Origin: Gammaproteobacteria bacterium
GTDB taxonomy: Bacteria; Pseudomonadota; Gammaproteobacteria; PS1; Pseudothioglobaceae
Reading direction: 5' to 3'
Assembly (NCBI GenBank): GCA_029243595.1
Contig: JAQWRQ010000026.1
Span: 1 to 53,164, forward strand
Length of the DNA stretch: 53,164 bases
Positions 6,262 to 21,666 of this stretch are shown here, piece after piece. The position numbers were made by a program, and so were the translations under genes. Position 1 is the stretch's first letter. The number at the start of each line of letters is the position of its first letter. The notes under the pieces are model-generated. The model was given only the letters and a program-made list of their open reading frames with translations. It had not been told where the DNA came from and did no database searches.

Positions 6262-9200
6262 CTAAACATCATTCTTATCTTCTTTTTTAAGCAGACCGTT
6301 TGTGTCTATCTTCTCATCAGAAGTTTCTTTTTCAGTATCGTCATCCGTCTTCTTCTTTTTACTTAATGCAGCTTTAATCCACTCTTTCGGATCTTTGCTT
6401 GATTTCTCAGATTTAGGTTTTTTAGGTTTTTCTGGTTTTTCCACATTGTATTTTGCATCAGCATCTGCATCACCTGGCAATAAGCCCATGCTAACTGCAA
6501 TATTGCGACAAGAAGACTCGCCTGCTGATAGCGTACCTAGAGGGATTACAATCAGTGTTAATACAGTTGAGATCAACACACCGAATAACAATGAAATTGC
6601 CATACCTTGGAAAATAGGGTCCGTTAAGATCACACTTGCACCGCCTACCAATGCAAATGCAGTAATTAAAATTGGTCGCGTACGTGATGCGCAAGAGTTA
6701 ATGACAGCATCAAAGAACGGCATACCTTTGGCATATTCTTGCACGGTAAAGTCCACCAAAAGAATAGAGTTTCGTACAATAATACCGGCCAATGCAATCC
6801 AACCAATCATTGAGGTGGCTGTAAATTCAGCACCTAACAACCAATGTCCTGGCACAACACCTAAGAGTGTTAATGGAATTGGTGCCATTATTACCGCAGG
6901 GATAATAAAGTTACCAAATTGCCACACTACTAGCATGTAAATAACCACCAGCGCCACACCAAATGCGGTACCCATGTCGCGGAAAGTTTCGTATGTCACT
7001 GTCCACTCACCAGCCCATTCAAACCCTGGTACAGTCTGATCTTCAGGAGGACCTAAATATTCACCTTGTAATTCTTTACCGTCCACTGTTTGGTATCTAA
7101 GTAGTAAATCATCCACACCAAACATAGCGTAAATTGGCGCGCTTAAGCGGCCAATCGGCTCACCCAAAACGTACTCAACATCAGCCAGGTCTTTGTGGAA
7201 GATTAGATCATCTTGCTTTTTGTAAATAAACGAACCCAACTCAGAAATTGGAATCATGCCGCCATGTTGCGAAGGCACTGGAAGTTGTGTCAAGTATGAC
7301 AATTGTGAACGTTTAGACAGTGGCACCTTTAAGCAAACACGTGAAGGTTCTAACGCATTTTTAAGACGAATGGTTGTTACATTAAAGCTACTCATAGCCA
7401 TTGCCAACGTCTCTTTAACGGTTTGCACACTCACACCAAAACGAGAAGCTTTTTCAGTATCTACTTGGAAATTGATCACTGGATACTCATCACGCATCAA
7501 GTTGTCGATATCAGTCATTGTGCCTGACTCTTTAAACATTTCAGTTAAATCGTTGGCTAATTTACGACGAGTTTCCTTGTCTGGGCCATACACTTCTGCA
7601 ACCACAGGTCGCAACACAGGTGGGCCTGGCGGCATTTCTACTACTGCGTAGTTAGCACCCGCATCAGCAGCGATTTGCTTAATTAACTGCCTAGCTTCCA
7701 ATGCAATTTCATGGCTAGAGCGATCACGATCAGATTTTTCAGCTAACTGAATTTGCAACTCACCCTCTGATGAATTTTGTCTGAGGTAGTAGTGTCGAAC
7801 CAACCCGTTAAAATCAAATGGTTTGGCGGTACCTGCGTAAGATTGAATCGCAACTACTTCTGGCATATTACGTAATACTTGTGCCATTTTATGCAACGTT
7901 GAAGCGGTATCTGCCAATGCGGCCCCATCTGCCATATCTAAGACAACACCAAATTCTGACTTATTATCCAATGGCAGCATTTTTACTGGCACTGTGGTTG
8001 TATAGAACATTGACATTGACATAAAGAAGGCAACAAACAAGGCAATTAAAAAGCCCCAACCGTAAGCCTTGGTATGAAATAATTTTGAAATTGTAGAATG
8101 GAAGAACGCATACAATACTTTGCTTTCTTTTTCTTCTTTTTCATGCATTTTGTGCAACACACCGAGTGGTGGCACAATCTTCATAATAAAGTACGGTGTA
8201 AAGACAAAGGCTGCAAATAGCGATATCATCATAGCCACTGAACCTAAGACTGGAATTGGCGCCATGTAAGGCCCCATCATGCCGCTAACAGCTGCCATTG
8301 GTACCAATGCTGCGACCACGGTAAAGGTTGCTAGAATGGTTGGGTTACCTACTTCTCTTACTGCGTCAATCGCTGTTCCAATGGTAATTTTATTATCTAT
8401 TAGCCAGCGCCTGTATATATTCTCAGTCACAACAATGGCATCATCTACCAAAATACCAATCGAGAAAATCAGTGCGAATAAACTCACTCGGTCGATGGTC
8501 ATACCAAAAATCCATGCTGCAAAGATAGTCATTAATAATACAACTGGAATAACCAGTGTTACTACAACCGCAGGGCGCCATCCTAGTGCAAACCATACTA
8601 ATAAGGTTACTGCGCCTGTGGCAATAAAGAGTTTTTTAAGCAGTGCATTTACTTTGTCTTTAGCAGATTTACCGTAGTTTCTGGTAACACTAACCTCAAC
8701 ATTGTCCGGAATCAGTCGACCTTTAAGCTCCTCTACTCTGGCTAAAATATTTTCTGCAACTGCAACACCATTGGAGCCAAATTTCTTTGCAATGGCAATG
8801 GTGACTGCTTGTTCACCGGTGGCCTTTATGTTGGTCTTATTGGCTTTACCTGTATAGTAATTAACCATGTGGTCTGTTTCTTCAGGTGCGTAGTAGACAT
8901 CAGCCACATCACGCACATAAATAGGCATACCGTCTTTAACAGTAATCACTAGGTTTTCAATGTCTTCAACCTTTTTAAAGAAGTCACCTGAATAAACTTC
9001 CATCTTATAGCCGTTGAGCTCAATATCACCCGTGTGATCACTGACATTGGCCGAACCAACAGTATCTGCTATTTGTTGAATTGAAACCCCGTAACCAGCC
9101 AAACGGCCAGGATAAGCATCAATATGAAAAATCTCTTTACGACCACCAACCACAAAACCATTATTAGTGTCTTTAACTTTTTCGAGTTGTTGTAGTAGCT

Positions 9201-9717
9201 CTAAACCTAACGAACGTAGTTGTCCATCATCAAGTGATTTAGACCAGAGTGTTAAGTTAATAATAGGAACATCATCAATCTCTTTAGGCTTGATGAGTGG
9301 TTTTCTGGCGCCTGGCGGCATAAAATCAAGGTTGGCAAGCATCTTGTCTCGAACCTTGATGATGGAGGCGTTCATCTCTTGACCTACATCAAACTCAACT
9401 GTGATAATACCTTGACCTCTGTCAGAAACAGAGTAAACATGCTTCACACCTAAGATGTGTGACATTAATCGTTCTAGTGGTTTGATGATAATGTTAGACA
9501 CTTCATCAGAAGAAGCACCTGGATATTCAACAAATAAATCAATCATTGGCACGGAGATTTGCGGGTCTTCTTGCCTTGGGGTAGATATCAAACCAATAAT
9601 ACCTGCGCCCAACATGGCGAAGAATATAATGATTGAAAGTGGCGAGGTAATAAAGGCTTTGGTAAGCTTACCTGCTATTCCTAAATCATCTGCTTCCATT
9701 TGCTTGTTGTCTGACAT
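6262..9717 (-). CDS. RND-family efflux transporter, AcrB/ACR_tran type, with lysine-rich C-terminal tail
   Basis: A 1151-aa inner-membrane proton-driven pump subunit of the RND superfamily. The N-terminal helix (about 21-46) is followed by a porter domain, then the TM4 region GILVDDAIVVTENIYR with the paired proton-relay aspartates 425-426. A second porter domain and C-terminal helices complete the usual repeat. The last 70 residues (from about 1082) form a highly charged, lysine- and glutamate-rich cytosolic tail containing KKKK and DDD runs, which is longer and more charged than in well-known members. The membrane-fusion gene lies immediately upstream, 7 bp away, so the two form one unit. 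No outer-membrane channel is adjacent; the TolC-like protein at 46782-48146 is a candidate partner. Substrate cannot be inferred: the cytosolic TM4 motif does not match the metal-exporting CusA class clearly. Confidence 0.9.
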   Translation of the reverse strand: MSDNKQMEADDLGIAGKLTKAFITSPLSIIIFFAMLGAGIIGLISTPRQEDPQISVPMIDLFVEYPGASSDEVSNIIIKPLERLMSHILGVKHVYSVSDRGQGIITVEFDVGQEMNASIIKVRDKMLANLDFMPPGARKPLIKPKEIDDVPIINLTLWSKSLDDGQLRSLGLELLQQLEKVKDTNNGFVVGGRKEIFHIDAYPGRLAGYGVSIQQIADTVGSANVSDHTGDIELNGYKMEVYSGDFFKKVEDIENLVITVKDGMPIYVRDVADVYYAPEETDHMVNYYTGKANKTNIKATGEQAVTIAIAKKFGSNGVAVAENILARVEELKGRLIPDNVEVSVTRNYGKSAKDKVNALLKKLFIATGAVTLLVWFALGWRPAVVVTLVIPVVLLMTIFAAWIFGMTIDRVSLFALIFSIGILVDDAIVVTENIYRRWLIDNKITIGTAIDAVREVGNPTILATFTVVAALVPMAAVSGMMGPYMAPIPVLGSVAMMISLFAAFVFTPYFIMKIVPPLGVLHKMHEKEEKESKVLYAFFHSTISKLFHTKAYGWGFLIALFVAFFMSMSMFYTTTVPVKMLPLDNKSEFGVVLDMADGAALADTASTLHKMAQVLRNMPEVVAIQSYAGTAKPFDFNGLVRHYYLRQNSSEGELQIQLAEKSDRDRSSHEIALEARQLIKQIAADAGANYAVVEMPPGPPVLRPVVAEVYGPDKETRRKLANDLTEMFKESGTMTDIDNLMRDEYPVINFQVDTEKASRFGVSVQTVKETLAMAMSSFNVTTIRLKNALEPSRVCLKVPLSKRSQLSYLTQLPVPSQHGGMIPISELGSFIYKKQDDLIFHKDLADVEYVLGEPIGRLSAPIYAMFGVDDLLLRYQTVDGKELQGEYLGPPEDQTVPGFEWAGEWTVTYETFRDMGTAFGVALVVIYMLVVWQFGNFIIPAVIMAPIPLTLLGVVPGHWLLGAEFTATSMIGWIALAGIIVRNSILLVDFTVQEYAKGMPFFDAVINSCASRTRPILITAFALVGGASVILTDPIFQGMAISLLFGVLISTVLTLIVIPLGTLSAGESSCRNIAVSMGLLPGDADADAKYNVEKPEKPKKPKSEKSSKDPKEWIKAALSKKKKTDDDTEKETSDEKIDTNGLLKKEDKNDV

Positions 9718-13186: not shown

Positions 13187-13984
13187 ATGTCTGATTATTT
13201 GATTGGCGACGTTCAAGGCTGCTTTGACTCACTGCAATCTTTATTAAAAAAAATCAAATTTTCTGCCGATAAAGACCAGCTGTTCTTTTTGGGCGATGTG
13301 GTTAATCGTGGTGATCAATCATTAGCTACTTTGCGATTTATTAAAGATTTGGGTGAGAATGCAAAAATGGTTTTAGGTAATCATGATTTTCATTTATTAG
13401 CTTGCGCCCTAGGCGCTAGAAAACCTCATTCCAAAGATACTTTTGATGATATTTTAGGCGCAAGTGATTTTCAACCTCTTATTGATTTTTTATTACAACA
13501 GCCTTTGGTTATTCAACATAAAAAGGCGATTTTGGTACATGCAGGCATCCCACCAAGTTGGAATGAAGAGATGGCTTTAAGACAATCGCTTGAAGTTCAA
13601 AAACACTTGCAAAGCAATGATGCTGGTGATTTTATCAATAATATGTACGACAACCACCCTTACACTTGGTCAGAAAGCCTAGACACCATGGATGCTTGTC
13701 GATATACCATTAATGCTTGCATGCGAATGCGTGTTTGCAAGCCTGATGGTACTTTAGAATTTAGCCATAAAATGGGTCATGATGCCGCACCAGATGGGTT
13801 TAAAGCCTGGTTTTCGCATGACGATCGAGCTTTAAAAAACACAGATATATTTTTTGGACATTGGTCGACTTTATCTAATGTTAGGCAAGCACATGTTTAT
13901 CCGATGGATCAAGGTTGTGCTTGGGGTGGTCAGTTAAGTGCAATTCGATTTGAAGACAAACGAATATTCTCAGTCAATTGTTAA
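13187..13984 (+). CDS. apaH: bis(5'-nucleosyl)-tetraphosphatase, symmetrical (ApaH)
   Basis: Hydrolyses Ap4A symmetrically to two ADP and can also remove Np4 caps from RNA. The 265-aa product carries the calcineurin-type metallophosphatase motifs [10 protein letters not shown] (7-16), [10 protein letters not shown] and GNHDFH, with a later GHWSTL containing a metal-binding histidine. It closes the pdxA operon. Its stop overlaps the stop of the convergent dapF through the shared bases TTAA at 13981-13984, so no terminator separates them. Confidence 0.96.
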
Positions 13985-14793
13985 ATTTCAATTTGCCCTT
14001 CGTACACAAACTGTGCGGGACCTGATAAAAATACGTGCTCATTTTCAGTATATTCAATTAGTGCATCCCCTCCCCTAAGGTGGGCCACGACAGTAGAATC
14101 TAACAACCCTGCTCTAACGCCGGAAATCACCGCTGCACAAGCACCTGAACCACAAGCCAGCGTTTCTCCAGCGCCACGCTCATACACACGCAAATTGATT
14201 TCATTAGCGTTTAACACCTGCATAAAACCAACATTAGCTTGATTGGGTAATAATTCACTTTGCTGAATTTGTATTGCAATATCTTGGACATTAACCGTGT
14301 TAACATCATTCACAAGCATGACGCAATGTGGATTGCCTATGGAAAGTGTTGCCACCTCAAAACCTGCGATTTCATAAGTATTCTGCTGTTGCATTGCGTG
14401 CAAAGGGATGTTGATAGGATTAAAGTTAGGCTCGCCCATATCAACTTGAACCGTCTGGTTATCGTTGACAAATAAACTCATTAATCCTGCTCGAGTTTCG
14501 ACGTTAATTGGGTTGTTGGTCGTAAGGCCTTTTTCAGTCACAAAGCGTGCAAAACAGCGCGCACCATTGCCACACTGCTCTACTTCGGTACCATCTGCAT
14601 TGTAAATAATATAGCGAAAATCTACTCCCGGTGTGGTGCTCGATTCCACCATTAGAAGCTGATCAAATCCAACGCCAAGATGTCGGTGCGCCAGGGCAAT
14701 AATCTGCTCAGCACTTAAAGTGATAGCGCCCAAGATATTGTCAATCACCATAAAGTCATTGCCCAATCCGTGCATTTTTGTAAAATTAATCAT
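13981..14793 (-). CDS. dapF: diaminopimelate epimerase DapF
   Basis: Converts LL- to meso-diaminopimelate for lysine and peptidoglycan synthesis, using a pair of cysteines. With the ATG at 14791-14793 the product is 270 aa, begins [16 protein letters not shown], and has catalytic Cys74 in CGNGARC and Cys214 in [11 protein letters not shown] two codons upstream is also open, but the ATG matches the family N-terminus better. It works in the same pathway as lysC at the other end of the window. It is a single-gene minus-strand unit, convergent with apaH and divergent from the DUF971 gene. Confidence 0.96.
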
Positions 14794-14824
14794 ACGCACA
14801 TTTTAACTGTTAGTTTCTTGTGTG

Positions 14825-14851
14825 TTTACAAATTAAAGTATCTGCTAAAAT
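14825..14851 (+). promoter_or_regulatory. putative promoter of the DUF971-rseP-bamA run
   Basis: TTTACA (14825-14830), a 15-bp spacer, and an extended -10 element TGC-TAAAAT (14843-14851), ending 28 bp before the DUF971 ATG. The spacer is shorter than ideal, but the TG extension can compensate. Confidence 0.4.
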
Positions 14852-14879
14852 TAGCACCTCATTTAATTTGGATTTCATC

Positions 14880-15233
14880 ATGATCACACCTAGCAATATT
14901 ACCCTTAATAAAGAAAAAACGCTATTAACCATTACATTTGAAGGTGTTGATTATCCGCTAACTAGTGAATATTTAAGAGTTTACTCGCCTTCTGCAGAAG
15001 TGGTTGGTCATGGCCCTGGCCAAGAAACTTTGCAAGTTGGCAAGGATAATGTCACTATTACGCGCATTGAGCCAACCGGTAATTACGCGGTTGTTTTATT
15101 CTTTAGTGATGGTCACGATAGTGGTATTTATTCTTGGTCCCATTTACATCATTTATCCACTAATCATCAGGATCTTTGGCCTGAGTACTTAGCTAGATTA
15201 AAAGCCGCAGGACATCCGCACCCTGAACTTTAA
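14880..15233 (+). CDS. DUF971 protein (gamma-butyrobetaine hydroxylase-like N-terminal domain)
   Basis: A 117-aa stand-alone DUF971 domain, the fold that forms the N-terminal zinc-binding part of gamma-butyrobetaine hydroxylases. Typical features are the two-strand core LTITFEGVDYPLTSEYLRVYSPSAEV (split here between residues about 18-43), the VTITRIEPTGNYAV segment and the ending FSDGHDSGIYSWSHLHHL. The upstream in-frame ATG at 14820 would add 20 unconserved residues across the promoter, so I start at 14880. Stand-alone copies in proteobacteria have been linked by position to hslVU or Fe-S genes; the function is not established. It lies 12 bp before rseP and is probably co-transcribed. Confidence 0.88.
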   Translation: MITPSNITLNKEKTLLTITFEGVDYPLTSEYLRVYSPSAEVVGHGPGQETLQVGKDNVTITRIEPTGNYAVVLFFSDGHDSGIYSWSHLHHLSTNHQDLWPEYLARLKAAGHPHPEL

Positions 15234-15245
15234 GGTTTAAATCTT

Positions 15246-16586
15246 ATGGCATTTTTAAATGCTTTAATCGCTTTTATTGTCACCATTGGTATTTTGGTAA
15301 CAGTACATGAGTTTGGTCATTTTTGGGTGGCTAAAAAACTCGGCATCAAGGTGCTACGCTTCTCAGTAGGCTTTGGCAAAATCTTAAAATCATGGCAAGT
15401 TGGTGAAACTGAGTACACGCTGTGTGCCCTACCCTTGGGTGGCTTTGTCAAAATGCTGGATGAAAACGAAGGCAAAGTTGATTCTAGTGAAAAACACAGA
15501 GCCTTTAATACTCAAACTGTTTATAAACGCATTGCTGTCGTTGTAGCGGGGCCTGCGGCGAATTTTATATTGGCTGTTATTATTTATACCTTTATTTTTA
15601 TCATTGGCACTCATGGTATCAAGCCTGTGGTTGGTGTAGTTAAAAATGACAGTATTGCCCAATATGCCGAGCTAGAAATAGGCGATCAATTATTAACTAT
15701 TAATGGACAAGAAACCCCGAGCATTAGCGAGTTCTCTTTTGCTTTTGTCCGCGCTGCACAAGCACCTACAATGCAAATTGATGTGCGCTCAAAAACTGAC
15801 AACCTAAAAACATTAACGCTAAATTTAAAAGAAGATTTTCTATCCAAGCCAGAACAAGGCGTTGAACAATATTTAGGCTTTAAATTTGCTTTACCGACAC
15901 TCAAACCAATCATTGATCAAGTCATAAGTGAAAGCCCGGCAAGCTTGGCTGGCATCCAATCAGGTGATCAAATACTCAGTGTAAATAATAAGCCAGTAAA
16001 TACTTGGCGTGACTTTGTTGTAATGATTAAGAAAAGCGTTAACCAGACAATGCAATTAAGTATTTTACGAAATAAGCAGATAATCACACGCTCACTATCA
16101 CCAAAAAATGAAAATGGCACTCCCAAGATAGGTGTGAGCGTTATGGCGCCAGAAGGTTATTTAGATGAGTGGCGTGTTTTAGTTAAAAAGCAGCCATTAG
16201 ATGCCTTTCTATCTGCCAATGTTAAAACCTACCAACTCACTATGTTGAATTTGAAAATGATTCAAAAGATGATTTTGGGTGAAGCTTCTGTTAAACAAAT
16301 CAGCGGTCCGATCAGTATTGCGGATTATGCGGGCAAAACAGCGAGTGTCGGCTTAGTCTCTTTTTTGTCATTTTTAGCTTTAATCAGCATTGGTTTAGGC
16401 TTACTTAATTTGCTACCCATCCCCCTGCTTGATGGCGGGCACTTATTCTTTTATCTAATTGAAATTGTAAAGGGATCTCCTGTAAGTCAAGCTTTGCAAC
16501 AAAATGCATTGAAATTCGGCTTGTTTGTTATCCTCTCGCTTACCCTTATAGCGCTGTATAATGATTTTTTACGATTATTATCATAA
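15246..16586 (+). CDS. rseP: site-2 intramembrane zinc protease RseP
   Basis: Inner-membrane protease that cleaves the anti-sigma factor RseA and leftover signal peptides, releasing the envelope-stress sigma factor. The 446-aa protein has the zinc motif HEFGH (21-25) in the first transmembrane helix, two periplasmic PDZ domains (about 120-200 and 210-290), and the third metal-ligand region LLPIPLLDGG in a C-terminal helix. Length equals that of E. coli RseP (450 aa). It precedes bamA by 10 bp as in many gammaproteobacteria, although dxr and cdsA, which usually come just before, are absent here. Confidence 0.96.
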   Translation: MAFLNALIAFIVTIGILVTVHEFGHFWVAKKLGIKVLRFSVGFGKILKSWQVGETEYTLCALPLGGFVKMLDENEGKVDSSEKHRAFNTQTVYKRIAVVVAGPAANFILAVIIYTFIFIIGTHGIKPVVGVVKNDSIAQYAELEIGDQLLTINGQETPSISEFSFAFVRAAQAPTMQIDVRSKTDNLKTLTLNLKEDFLSKPEQGVEQYLGFKFALPTLKPIIDQVISESPASLAGIQSGDQILSVNNKPVNTWRDFVVMIKKSVNQTMQLSILRNKQIITRSLSPKNENGTPKIGVSVMAPEGYLDEWRVLVKKQPLDAFLSANVKTYQLTMLNLKMIQKMILGEASVKQISGPISIADYAGKTASVGLVSFLSFLALISIGLGLLNLLPIPLLDGGHLFFYLIEIVKGSPVSQALQQNALKFGLFVILSLTLIALYNDFLRLLS

Positions 16587-16596
16587 ATTTTAAACC

Positions 16597-17763
16597 ATGA
16601 AAAAAATTCTTACTCAAATCTCTTTAATTTTAACACTGTCTATCGCCTCTATCGCACAGGCAGAGATCATTAAAAGTATTGATATACTTGGCCTAAGTGC
16701 TATTTCTAGAGGTACAGTTTTGAGCTATTTACCTGTTGAAGTAGGTGATGATTATAGTAAAAAAACCTCAACACAGATTATTCGTGCACTTTATAAAACG
16801 CATTTTTTCAAAGACATCGAGGTCTCACAATCAGATCAAGTATTAGAAATAAAGCTTCAAGAGAATCCGCATATTAAATATGTTGAGCTGTTAAATTACT
16901 CAGACAAGGTGATTGAAGAAGAGTCTATTAAGCAAGTGCTAAAAAGCATGGATTTATCCCAAGGTAAAATTTTTAACAAAAGACAATTGGATAAGCTTAT
17001 TTCGCAAATAGAGGCGTCTTACATCTCTAAGGGTTATTACGGTATCAAAATTACCAAGACCATTGAAATTGATGATCAAAATAGAGTTGGTATAGAGCTT
17101 GATATTAATGAAGGCGAGGTTGCACGTATTAGCACAATGAAAATCAGTGGCAACCAAGTGCATGACGAAGATGACTTATTAGATTTGTTCGAGATTGGTG
17201 AGGCTGATTTTTTCCCACTAAACTACTTCACTGAAAAAGACCATTACTCAAAAGTGGCTCTCGATGCTGGTGTTGAGGCAATGAAATCACTCTACATTAA
17301 CTCAGGTTATCTTGATTTTAAAATTGGTCAAATTAAAACAGACTTGTCTGATGATAAGCAAAGTATTGATATTGACATTCAAGTTAACGAGGGCTCGCAG
17401 TATAAAATTGGCAGCATCAAGTTTAGTGGTGACCTACTCAACCAATCGATTGATGATCTTAACGGTTTATTAACAATTGGCAAGAGTGATGTATTTAAGC
17501 GAAAAAAAGTAATTGAAAGTATTCAAGCGGTTACTGATTTATTTGCAGATCAAGGTTATGCTTTTGCCAAGGTTGATCCAATCACCAAAGAAGATACTAA
17601 AGCGCATGTAATTGATTTAGATATCAATATCGCTTTAAACAAAAAGGTTTATATTAATCGCATCACTATTGTTGGTAACACGCGTACTCAAGATGAAGTT
17701 ATTCGTCGTGAAATTGGTATTAACGAAGGCGGTCTATATTCAAATACCGAGTTAGACGAATAG
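16597..17763 (+). CDS. bamA: BamA N-terminal fragment: signal peptide and POTRA1 to part of POTRA5
   Basis: If read literally this part gives 388 aa: an export signal ending in AQA at about 20-22, POTRA1-4, and the first half of POTRA5 (VYINRITIVGNTRTQDEV). It would be secreted to the periplasm but lack the entire barrel. The start ATG lies 10 bp past rseP. Confidence 0.75.
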   Translation: MKKILTQISLILTLSIASIAQAEIIKSIDILGLSAISRGTVLSYLPVEVGDDYSKKTSTQIIRALYKTHFFKDIEVSQSDQVLEIKLQENPHIKYVELLNYSDKVIEEESIKQVLKSMDLSQGKIFNKRQLDKLISQIEASYISKGYYGIKITKTIEIDDQNRVGIELDINEGEVARISTMKISGNQVHDEDDLLDLFEIGEADFFPLNYFTEKDHYSKVALDAGVEAMKSLYINSGYLDFKIGQIKTDLSDDKQSIDIDIQVNEGSQYKIGSIKFSGDLLNQSIDDLNGLLTIGKSDVFKRKKVIESIQAVTDLFADQGYAFAKVDPITKEDTKAHVIDLDINIALNKKVYINRITIVGNTRTQDEVIRREIGINEGGLYSNTELDE

Positions 17764-18885
17764 GTTAAAAAGATTAAACGACTAGGCTTCTTCTCTGATG
17801 TACAAATGGAAGTGACAAAACTCAAAGAATTTGACGATAAAATTAATTTACACTTTAGTGTTGAAGAAACTAAAACCGGTACTTTTTCAATTGGTTTATC
17901 TCACTCCAACAGCTCAGGTGCTGCCTTCAACATGGGTATTAAAGAAAATAACTTCTTAGGTACAGGTAACACGCTTAACGCCGCTTTATCAAACTCTGAA
18001 GCGGTACAAGAAATGAATTTTTATTTCTCCGACCCATACTTCACTGAAGACAAACATAGTATTAGTTATGGTTTTTTCACCAAATCAATTGATGGTGCAA
18101 GCCTTGACGTTTCTTCTTATAAAATTGACGAAAATGGCTTTAGCCTGGGTTACGGCATACCTTTAACCGAAGACACACGTATCAGTGCTGATGTTCGCGC
18201 CTCTAGTCGTACTGTTACTTGTGGTACAACCTTTGCAGGTGCAGACTATGAAGCGACTCAATGTGCTAGTGGTGACAAGACAGAAGTTAAAACCAATGTT
18301 CGCTGGTCTAACAACACATTAAACAACTTTAACCATCCAACTGACGGACAAAAGAACAGCTTAAGTTTAGACTTGACCTTGCCAATCGCAGATTTCCGTT
18401 ACTATAAGCTCGACGCTTCTCATAAAAGCTACCGACCAATTGGTAATGACGTAACTTGGAAGGTTAACGGCAGTTTGGGTTTAGCACAGGGTTATGGCGG
18501 CAAAGACTTACCTTTCTTTAAGCGCTACTACGGTGGTGGTTCGTCATCTGTGCGTGGATTTGACTTTAACTCACTAGGTGCGACTTATAGTGATGGAAAA
18601 GCCAAAGGTGGTGAATTATCACTATTAGCAGGTACTTCACTTATTTCACCAATGAAATTTATTAATGATAGTAAGAATATGCGCATGAGTGCATTTATTG
18701 ATACGGGATCCGTTGAAGAAAAAGCATCGAGCTTTAATGTTGATAACATACGCATGTCAACTGGTGTGGCATTCTCATGGTTAACACCTGTTGGCCCGTT
18801 AGGTATTTATGCCGCCACACCTTTAATCAAAAAATCAGCAGACAAAACAAAAACAGTTGAATTTACATTAGGTACAAGCTTTTAA
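17764..18885 (+). CDS. bamA: BamA C-terminal fragment: rest of POTRA5 and beta barrel
   Basis: Open in the same frame directly after the TAG. The first ATG is at 17806, giving 359 aa with the end of POTRA5 and the whole barrel, including the conserved VRGF motif (GGGSSSVRGFDFN) of loop 6 and a C-terminal FTLGTSF ending with the terminal Phe expected of outer-membrane proteins. Read alone it would have no export signal and could not work. Confidence 0.75.
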   Translation, partial: VKKIKRLGFFSDVQMEVTKLKEFDDKINLHFSVEETKTGTFSIGLSHSNSSGAAFNMGIKENNFLGTGNTLNAALSNSEAVQEMNFYFSDPYFTEDKHSISYGFFTKSIDGASLDVSSYKIDENGFSLGYGIPLTEDTRISADVRASSRTVTCGTTFAGADYEATQCASGDKTEVKTNVRWSNNTLNNFNHPTDGQKNSLSLDLTLPIADFRYYKLDASHKSYRPIGNDVTWKVNGSLGLAQGYGGKDLPFFKRYYGGGSSSVRGFDFNSLGATYSDGKAKGGELSLLAGTSLISPMKFINDSKNMRMSAFIDTGSVEEKASSFNVDNIRMSTGVAFSWLTPVGPLGIYAATPLIKKSADKTKTVEFTLGTSF

Positions 18886-18892
18886 TATATAG

Positions 18893-19390
18893 ATGACGAT
18901 AAAAACTATTGCTCTTGTATTGTTAACGTTTAGCGCTACTTTACAAGCAGAGTCTCCGAAAATTGGCTATATTAATATTGATCATGTGGTCAGTAGTTCG
19001 CCACAATTTATCCAAGCTAATCAATCAGTTGTTAAAGAGTTTAAACCTCAAGAAGAACAGTTGTTGTTGCTTAGCCAAAAAATACAATTGCTAGCAGATG
19101 ACTTTAATAAAAATAGTAAGGCACTTACACAGTCTGAGCGAAAGTCTGAGATTAAAAAAATCGCCAATTTAGAGCGCCAACTTAAACAGCAGGCATCATC
19201 ACTAAAAAACCAATTAAAGCTTAAGAACGAATTAGAATTAGGAAAAATCCAAGATTTAATCAATGAAGTCATTAAAGAGACTGCCGAATCACAAGGGTTT
19301 GATTTAATCCTCTATCAAGAAGTTGCTTTTGCAAGTAAGAAAGTGAATATCACACCAATTATCAAACAAAAACTCAGACAACGATTTTAA
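18893..19390 (+). CDS. skp: periplasmic chaperone Skp/OmpH
   Basis: Holds unfolded outer-membrane proteins in the periplasm and hands them to the Bam complex. The 165-aa product has a signal peptide (ending about LQAE at 18-21), the IGYINIDHVVSSSP start of the mature domain, and a long charged coiled-coil segment (about 50-120) that forms the tentacles, as in the Skp trimer. It starts 7 bp after bamA and ends 2 bp before lpxD, the usual order. Confidence 0.93.
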   Translation: MTIKTIALVLLTFSATLQAESPKIGYINIDHVVSSSPQFIQANQSVVKEFKPQEEQLLLLSQKIQLLADDFNKNSKALTQSERKSEIKKIANLERQLKQQASSLKNQLKLKNELELGKIQDLINEVIKETAESQGFDLILYQEVAFASKKVNITPIIKQKLRQRF

Positions 19391-19392
19391 TT

Positions 19393-20391
19393 ATGCATAC
19401 ACTTGGGGAACTTGCTAAAATTATTGATGCTAAGCTTGTTGGTGACGAGTCAATTAACATTGCAGGAGCCGCCTCTCTTGGCTTGGCAAGCAGTGACCAG
19501 TTAAGCTATATCGTTAGCGTAAAACACAAACAAAATCTACTTACCTCGAAAGCAGGTGTGGTTATCCTTAATGAAGATTTGTTAAACGATTGCCCTACCA
19601 ATGCTTTAGTAGTTAATGATGATGTATATCTGGCTTTTGCTAAAATTTCACATTATTTTAAAAAACAAACCACTCTCTCTGATGGTGTTCATTCTAGCGC
19701 CATTGTTAACAATGCGAAAATTGGTAGTAATTGCAATATTGGCCAAAACGTTATCATTGGCAGTAACTGCACCGTTAGTCATAACGTCATTATTGAAGAT
19801 GATGTCGTTATTGGTGATAATGCCTATTTACACCCTAATGTTACGATTTTACAAGGCTGCTCAATAGGTGATAACGTGGTGATTTCATCGGGCGCTGTGA
19901 TTGGTTCAGAAGGCTTTGGCAACGCAAGAGATAAACAGGGTTGTTGGCATACGATTGCACATTTGGGCAATGTTGTTATTGGTGATAATGTGACGGTTGG
20001 TGCAAACACAACTATTGACAGAGGGACACTGGAAGATACTCAAGTACATAATGGTGTGAGACTTGATAATTTGATACATATTGCTCACAATGTTACTATT
20101 GGTCAAGACACTGCGATTGCTGCTAATACCGGTATTGCCGGCAGTACGGTACTTGGTAAGCGCTGTATGATTGGTGGCATGGTCGGCATTGTGGGGCATT
20201 TAAATATCTGTGACGATGTGATTGTAAACGCCAAAAGCACGGTTGATAAAGACATTAAAACACCAGGAATGTACACAGGCATCATGCCACTCATGCCTCA
20301 CAAACAATGGCAGAATGTTGGTTTATGGCTAGTAAAACTTGATAAAATCATCAAATACTTAAATATTAAACTCAAAAATTTAAAGGATTAA
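19393..20391 (+). CDS. lpxD: UDP-3-O-acylglucosamine N-acyltransferase LpxD
   Basis: Third enzyme of lipid A synthesis; adds a hydroxyacyl chain from ACP to the 2-amino group of UDP-3-O-acyl-glucosamine. The 332-aa product has a short N-terminal uridine-binding domain (about 1-100) and then a left-handed beta helix of hexapeptide repeats (about 105-300, pattern [LIV]-G-x4), with the catalytic histidine in HIAHNVTIG. Length is near E. coli LpxD (341 aa). It lies between skp and fabZ in the standard lipid A cluster. Confidence 0.96.
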
Positions 20392-20396
20392 TCGTT

Positions 20397-20840
20397 ATGG
20401 AAATGAACATTCAAGATGTAAAAAATTACCTACCCCATCGCTACCCTTTTTTGCTGATTGATCGAGTTTTGGAAATTGAAATTGGCAAATCATTAGTTGC
20501 CATTAAAAACGTAACTTTTAATGAGCCGCAATTTACTGGCCACTTCCCCGATCAACCAATCATGCCTGGCGTTATGATTGTAGAGGCTTTAGCTCAAGCC
20601 ACTGGTATTTTGGCGTTTAAATCCGAAGTAGGAAAGCCGATTGATGGGCAAATTTATATGTTGGTTGGTATCGACAAAGTGCGTTTTAAACGCGTGGTTG
20701 AACCAGGCGATCAAATACGTTTAGAAGTTGAAGTAATGACGGTTAAACGTGGCATCTGGAAGTTTAAATGCAGAGCTTTAGTCGACGAGAACGTCGTGAC
20801 AACCGCTGAACTTATGTGTACACAAAAAGCAGCGGATTAA
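20397..20840 (+). CDS. fabZ: 3-hydroxyacyl-ACP dehydratase FabZ
   Basis: Dehydrates 3-hydroxyacyl-ACP in fatty acid elongation, competing with LpxA and LpxD for the hydroxyacyl pool. The 147-aa hot-dog-fold protein has the catalytic His in [12 protein letters not shown] and the catalytic Glu in [11 protein letters not shown], with the [12 protein letters not shown] loop between them. An ATG two codons downstream is a possible alternative start. The gene follows lpxD by 5 bp and precedes lpxA by 28 bp. Confidence 0.97.
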
Positions 20841-20868: not shown

Positions 20869-21666
20869 ATGGCAATTGACCCTAGTGCAGTTATCGACCC
20901 TAGCGCAAAAGTTCATAAAAACGCTGAGATATGCGCCTACGCCGTTATTGGTGCTAATGTCGAAATTGGTTCTGGCACCATTGTAGAGTCTCATGCAGTT
21001 ATACAAGGCCCTACTAAAATTGGTAAAAATAACCATATTTATTCATTTGCCTCTATTGGTGGCGACCCGCAAGATATCACTTATGAAGAAGGTCAAGAAT
21101 CTAATTTAGTCATCGGTGATGACAACCTAATCCGTGAATTTTGCACCATTAACCGCGGCACAGAAAAAGAAAAATCACTCACTCGAGTTGGCTCCAACAA
21201 CATGCTGATGGCTTATGTGCATATCGCTCATGACTGTGAGGTTGGTGATCACACCATTATGTCTAACAATGCTTCATTGGCAGGTCATGTCAAAATACAT
21301 GATTGGGCAATCTTGGGTGGCTTTACCTTGGTAAAACAATTCTGCATGATTGGCATGCATACTTACATCGGTATGGGTTGTCAGGTAAATAAGGATATTC
21401 CAGCTTATATGGTGGCTTCAGGTACACAAACACGTGTCAGAAGTATTAATGCTGAAGGCATGAAACGTCGTGGTTTTTCATCAAGTGCAGTCGCCTCTAT
21501 CAAACGCGCCTTTAAAGTGGTATATCGCGAATCTCAAGGTCGACTATTAGACCACGCCCTGCAAGATTTGGAAAAATCTGAAGCTGATAGCCCTGAAGTA
21601 ATGCAATTTGTAAAATGTATTCGTAGCTCAAAAGTCGGCATTATGCGTGGCCCGATTGAGGAATAA
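20869..21666 (+). CDS. lpxA: acyl-ACP:UDP-N-acetylglucosamine O-acyltransferase LpxA
   Basis: First enzyme of lipid A synthesis; transfers a 3-hydroxyacyl chain from ACP to the 3-OH of UDP-GlcNAc. The 265-aa product is a left-handed beta helix (about 5-190) with the catalytic histidine in YVHIAHDCEVGD and the conserved GGDPQDITY and INRGT motifs, followed by a helical C-terminal domain. It has one of the stronger ribosome sites of this run, GAGGAGA, 7-8 bases before the ATG. lpxB, which often follows, is replaced here by murJ. Confidence 0.96.
   Translation: MAIDPSAVIDPSAKVHKNAEICAYAVIGANVEIGSGTIVESHAVIQGPTKIGKNNHIYSFASIGGDPQDITYEEGQESNLVIGDDNLIREFCTINRGTEKEKSLTRVGSNNMLMAYVHIAHDCEVGDHTIMSNNASLAGHVKIHDWAILGGFTLVKQFCMIGMHTYIGMGCQVNKDIPAYMVASGTQTRVRSINAEGMKRRGFSSSAVASIKRAFKVVYRESQGRLLDHALQDLEKSEADSPEVMQFVKCIRSSKVGIMRGPIEE

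Follow-up and report, generated by a model that had tools for sequence, protein, structure and literature searches.

Single-base nonsense errors are a general phenomenon in draft genomes. BamA (YaeT, TIGR03303), a member of the Omp85 superfamily (PF01103 with POTRA repeats, PF07244), and its POTRA3-5 domains have been described as essential in E. coli (PMC3871556). Basal read-through of UAG has been put at about 0.005-0.03% in three gammaproteobacteria: two pseudomonads gave about 0.01% and 1 in 20,000, and E. coli gave about 1/500 of its UGA level of 12% (PMC9481147). Such levels would be far too low to supply the essential BamA.

The bamA gene studied here lies in a window of 53,164 nucleotides, the whole stretch of DNA that was analysed, which is one contig (C29) of a gammaproteobacterial assembly that totals 1,098,124 bases over 55 contigs and is 93.05% complete. 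The assembly is fragmented and its relatives carry MAG labels, which points to a probable origin from a metagenome. The gene resembles described BamA in its full-length, in-register match to the family model and in its location in a conserved envelope cluster (rseP-bamA-skp-lpxD-fabZ-lpxA); its one difference is the TAG that occupies a conserved serine position of POTRA5, and it is otherwise ordinary. The features of the locus were as follows.

15246 to 16586, plus strand: rseP, intact, upstream of bamA (TIGR00054)
16597 to 17763, plus strand: 5' part of bamA, with the signal peptide region, POTRA1-4 and the start of POTRA5; 388 codons, ended by TAG (Pfam; TIGR03303 positions 2-358)
17761 to 17763, plus strand: in-frame TAG, at a column where relatives have serine in 33 of 34 aligned rows (certain contigs were present in two collections and so count in more than one row)
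17764 to 18885, plus strand: 3' part of bamA, with the remainder of POTRA5 and all of the Omp85 beta-barrel; 373 codons and a terminal TAA (TIGR03303 positions 362-741)
18893 to 19390, plus strand: skp-like chaperone gene, intact, downstream of bamA (profile match)
19393 to 20391: lpxD, after the skp-like gene
20397 to 20840: fabZ, after lpxD
20869 to 21666: lpxA, after fabZ

All of the neighbours of bamA (rseP, the skp-like gene, lpxD, fabZ, lpxA and murJ) were intact. A suspected broken gene at 13981-15233 of the window proved to be a false alarm; an open frame on the minus strand occupies that region.

Translation of 16597-18885 on the plus strand gave 762 codons and a terminal TAA, with the TAG at 17761-17763 as the sole internal stop, confirming the claim of an earlier note that a single bamA frame runs uninterrupted except at this codon. 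When read through the TAG, the product scored 662 bits against TIGR03303 (cut-off 297) over positions 2-741, which places it in the BamA family. The BamA architecture of POTRA repeats followed by an Omp85 barrel was present; Pfam located the POTRA repeats 5' of the TAG and the whole Omp85 domain (1-325 of 325) 3' of it. The one departure was that the reading frame, expected to be unbroken in BamA, is broken by the TAG. Since the TIGR03303 match stops at position 358 before this codon and resumes in register at position 362 after it, the TAG stands for one residue, with no deletion or duplication at the break, as the earlier note had also held with regard to a deletion. Two conserved halves kept in register are not expected of random sequence.

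The TAG is an isolated nonsense call in a bamA that is otherwise intact and looks functional. The likeliest reading, and one that we consider probable, is that a single base of the draft consensus is wrong or that a minority variant has entered it; we infer that the error came from sequencing or assembly rather than from the cell. On this reading the living population would have kept a sense codon, which is serine in almost every relative. The locus shares with the nonsense errors of other draft genomes a single substitution, a lack of decay, restriction to one assembly and an essential gene.

The earlier note had proposed that the codon be compared in related genomes. Of 115 genomes searched (the source genome included), 102 gave a match, and a stop inside bamA was found only in the source genome. 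The column aligned with the TAG held alanine in the single row (1/34) that was not serine, and no relative had TAG there. All six close relatives had TCN at this codon, TCG among them, and TAG is one C-to-A change from TCG. A consensus error is favoured both by the serine column, with TCG one step away, and by the absence of a stop from the bamA of every other genome among the 102. Against it, the nearest relative, a contig labelled Candidatus Ruthturnera with 93% protein identity over the full length and 87% DNA identity, has TCA, so that two changes in the TAG codon separate the pair.

In the comparison with this nearest relative, dN/dS was 0.055 for the part 5' of the TAG and 0.038 for the part 3' of it; values for other pairs lay at 0.03-0.06. 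Private amino-acid changes in the two halves numbered 5 and 6 in the source lineage and 7 and 3 in the nearest relative (totals of 11 and 10), with no excess in the source lineage. By these measures both halves of bamA are under strong purifying selection and the gene is undecayed. The relaxed selection or additional disabling changes of a pseudogene were not seen, dN/dS lying at 0.03-0.06 in both halves and the stop being single. Given this lack of decay, the stop is either absent from the cells or very new. The low dN/dS of both halves and the balanced private changes favour a consensus error; the lack of decay is equally what a very recent change predicts. The next likeliest explanation, which we nevertheless regard as rather unlikely, is a real, very recent nonsense mutation in some of the sampled cells (a deleterious polymorphism within a strain or a bottlenecked population), with the wild-type codon persisting. 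However, as BamA is essential in E. coli (PMC3871556), unrescued cells should die, and a lethal allele should not turn into the consensus. This essentiality, combined with UAG read-through that is too low (PMC9481147), is a further point in favour of a consensus error. The evidence presented here fits a consensus error and a true mutation alike.

In a genome-wide check, 1.12 of the 1.51 Mb of a complete relative (G028) was compared with the source genome, which gave 848 non-overlapping aligned stretches and 246,210 residues. No convincing internal stop beyond that of bamA was found in the 848 stretches; six interior stops were left after filtering, and inspection of the alignments placed all six in upstream, intergenic or tRNA stretches. 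The 271 internal stops of an unfiltered pass were discarded as largely antisense shadow frames and alignments overrunning gene starts. When all frames were scanned for stops lying between coding-like stretches, bamA stood out as the clear case, and the other frame-split cases had, as judged by eye, a start codon right after the stop or plausible alternative starts. With no comparable stop elsewhere, the bamA event is isolated, and a generally poor assembly was rejected as its cause because no other clear nonsense or frameshift was found. The absence of another convincing internal stop from the 246,210 residues favours a consensus error at this one codon. The same cleanness also counts against it: the assembly has neither ambiguity codes nor scaffold gaps, and no further clear nonsense or frameshift was found, so substitution errors may be infrequent in it, and the smaller number of base errors then expected argues for a recent nonsense mutation.

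Nonsense changes make up 4.5% of random coding substitutions, and a consensus error rate of 1e-5 to 3e-5 leads to an expectation of about 0.4 to 1.3 nonsense calls in a 1.1-Mb genome. With this share and a modest error rate, a single nonsense call in such a genome is therefore not improbable, and the expectation of one such error at these rates again favours a consensus error. Nothing usable was found in the literature on either premature stops in metagenome-assembled genomes or oxidative sequencing artefacts of the C-to-A type.

The earlier note had further suggested that a second bamA might exist. Searches for the Omp85 barrel and TIGR03303 in the 93%-complete assembly, in which eight contigs shorter than 3 kb (16,906 bases) were read as N and hence not covered, found one copy, with its one TAG, and no second. 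There is only a slim chance that a second intact bamA lies in the uncovered part of the genome, which would make the present copy a newly formed pseudogene. The assembly may lack about 7% of the genome, in addition to the 16.9 kb read as N, but the nearest same-genus relatives have one bamA locus each, fragments at contig ends aside, and the present copy occupies the conserved cluster. The least probable explanation, and one to which we give almost no credence, is a split BamA whose two fragments are made separately and act together. An ATG at 17806, downstream of the TAG, does open a frame of 359 codons; however, this frame begins within POTRA5 and its product would be without an export signal, the upstream part would be without a membrane anchor, there is no discontinuity in dN/dS or residue conservation at the break, and no relative has a stop at this site.

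Functional read-through, in which the TAG would be decoded often enough to give full-length BamA through a mutant suppressor tRNA or a leaky context, is improbable. The locus resembles bacterial amber suppression or read-through in the open, conserved frame after the stop, and no second bamA was seen that could supply the protein, but the decoding machinery pointed the other way. ARAGORN identified 33 tRNA genes and a tmRNA in the whole (incomplete) assembly, and none of the 33 had the CUA anticodon of the amber suppressor that the earlier note had proposed to look for. Since tRNA-Ile(GAU) and tRNA-Ala(UGC) were absent as well, this tRNA set is incomplete, probably because the rRNA operon region was unassembled, and a suppressor tRNA gene could sit in the unassembled few percent. 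RF1 was present, with PET and GGQ motifs identical to those of close relatives. TAG was an ordinary terminator, ending about 131 (about 19%) of 696 aligned genes, alongside 455 ending in TAA and 110 in TGA, so that a strong suppressor would extend many proteins. Neither mark of programmed read-through was found: the stop was not conserved in relatives, and no stable, stimulatory RNA structure was detected 3' of the TAG (MFE -5.5 kcal/mol, z = +1.4). The basal UAG level of the three gammaproteobacteria (PMC9481147) likewise argues against it. In a separate observation, two adjoining tRNA-Glu(UUC) genes were found at G000:C47:1700-1921 (minus strand), one with an odd anticodon position in the ARAGORN model.

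Genome-wide recoding of TAG, which would be marked by a lost or altered RF1 and many in-frame TAGs, was rejected, since RF1 is intact, TAG serves to terminate genes and the genome-wide check showed no convincing internal TAG besides that of bamA. The earlier note had deemed recoding unlikely because TAG ends intact genes here, and the TAG terminators that it cited (3257, 37456 and 40181) were real ORF ends. It is very doubtful that the TAG is real and fixed and that BamA is made by efficient, site-specific UAG read-through, with a suppressor tRNA encoded in the unassembled part or an unknown local signal; were this so, the dependence of a core essential protein on stop-codon read-through would be remarkable. 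Thus, of the explanations offered in the earlier note, a base-call error fits all of the findings and is the likeliest, and neither read-through or suppression nor a second bamA gained support. The TAG in bamA most likely does not reflect a novel decoding of the genetic code. With consensus errors at a modest rate, one nonsense call within an essential gene is to be expected in a draft genome; the case serves as a caution that the reads should be consulted before recoding is invoked.

As regards the other Bam components, BamD and BamE were present in the genome. TIGR03300 did not recognise BamB here or in 17 of 18 other family members, with weak partial matches in one, and BamB may have been lost or be very divergent across the whole family. 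Elsewhere in the window, positions 6262-9717 on the minus strand encode a large RND-type efflux permease of 1151 amino acids, whose score falls short of the curated cut-off for every named subfamily.
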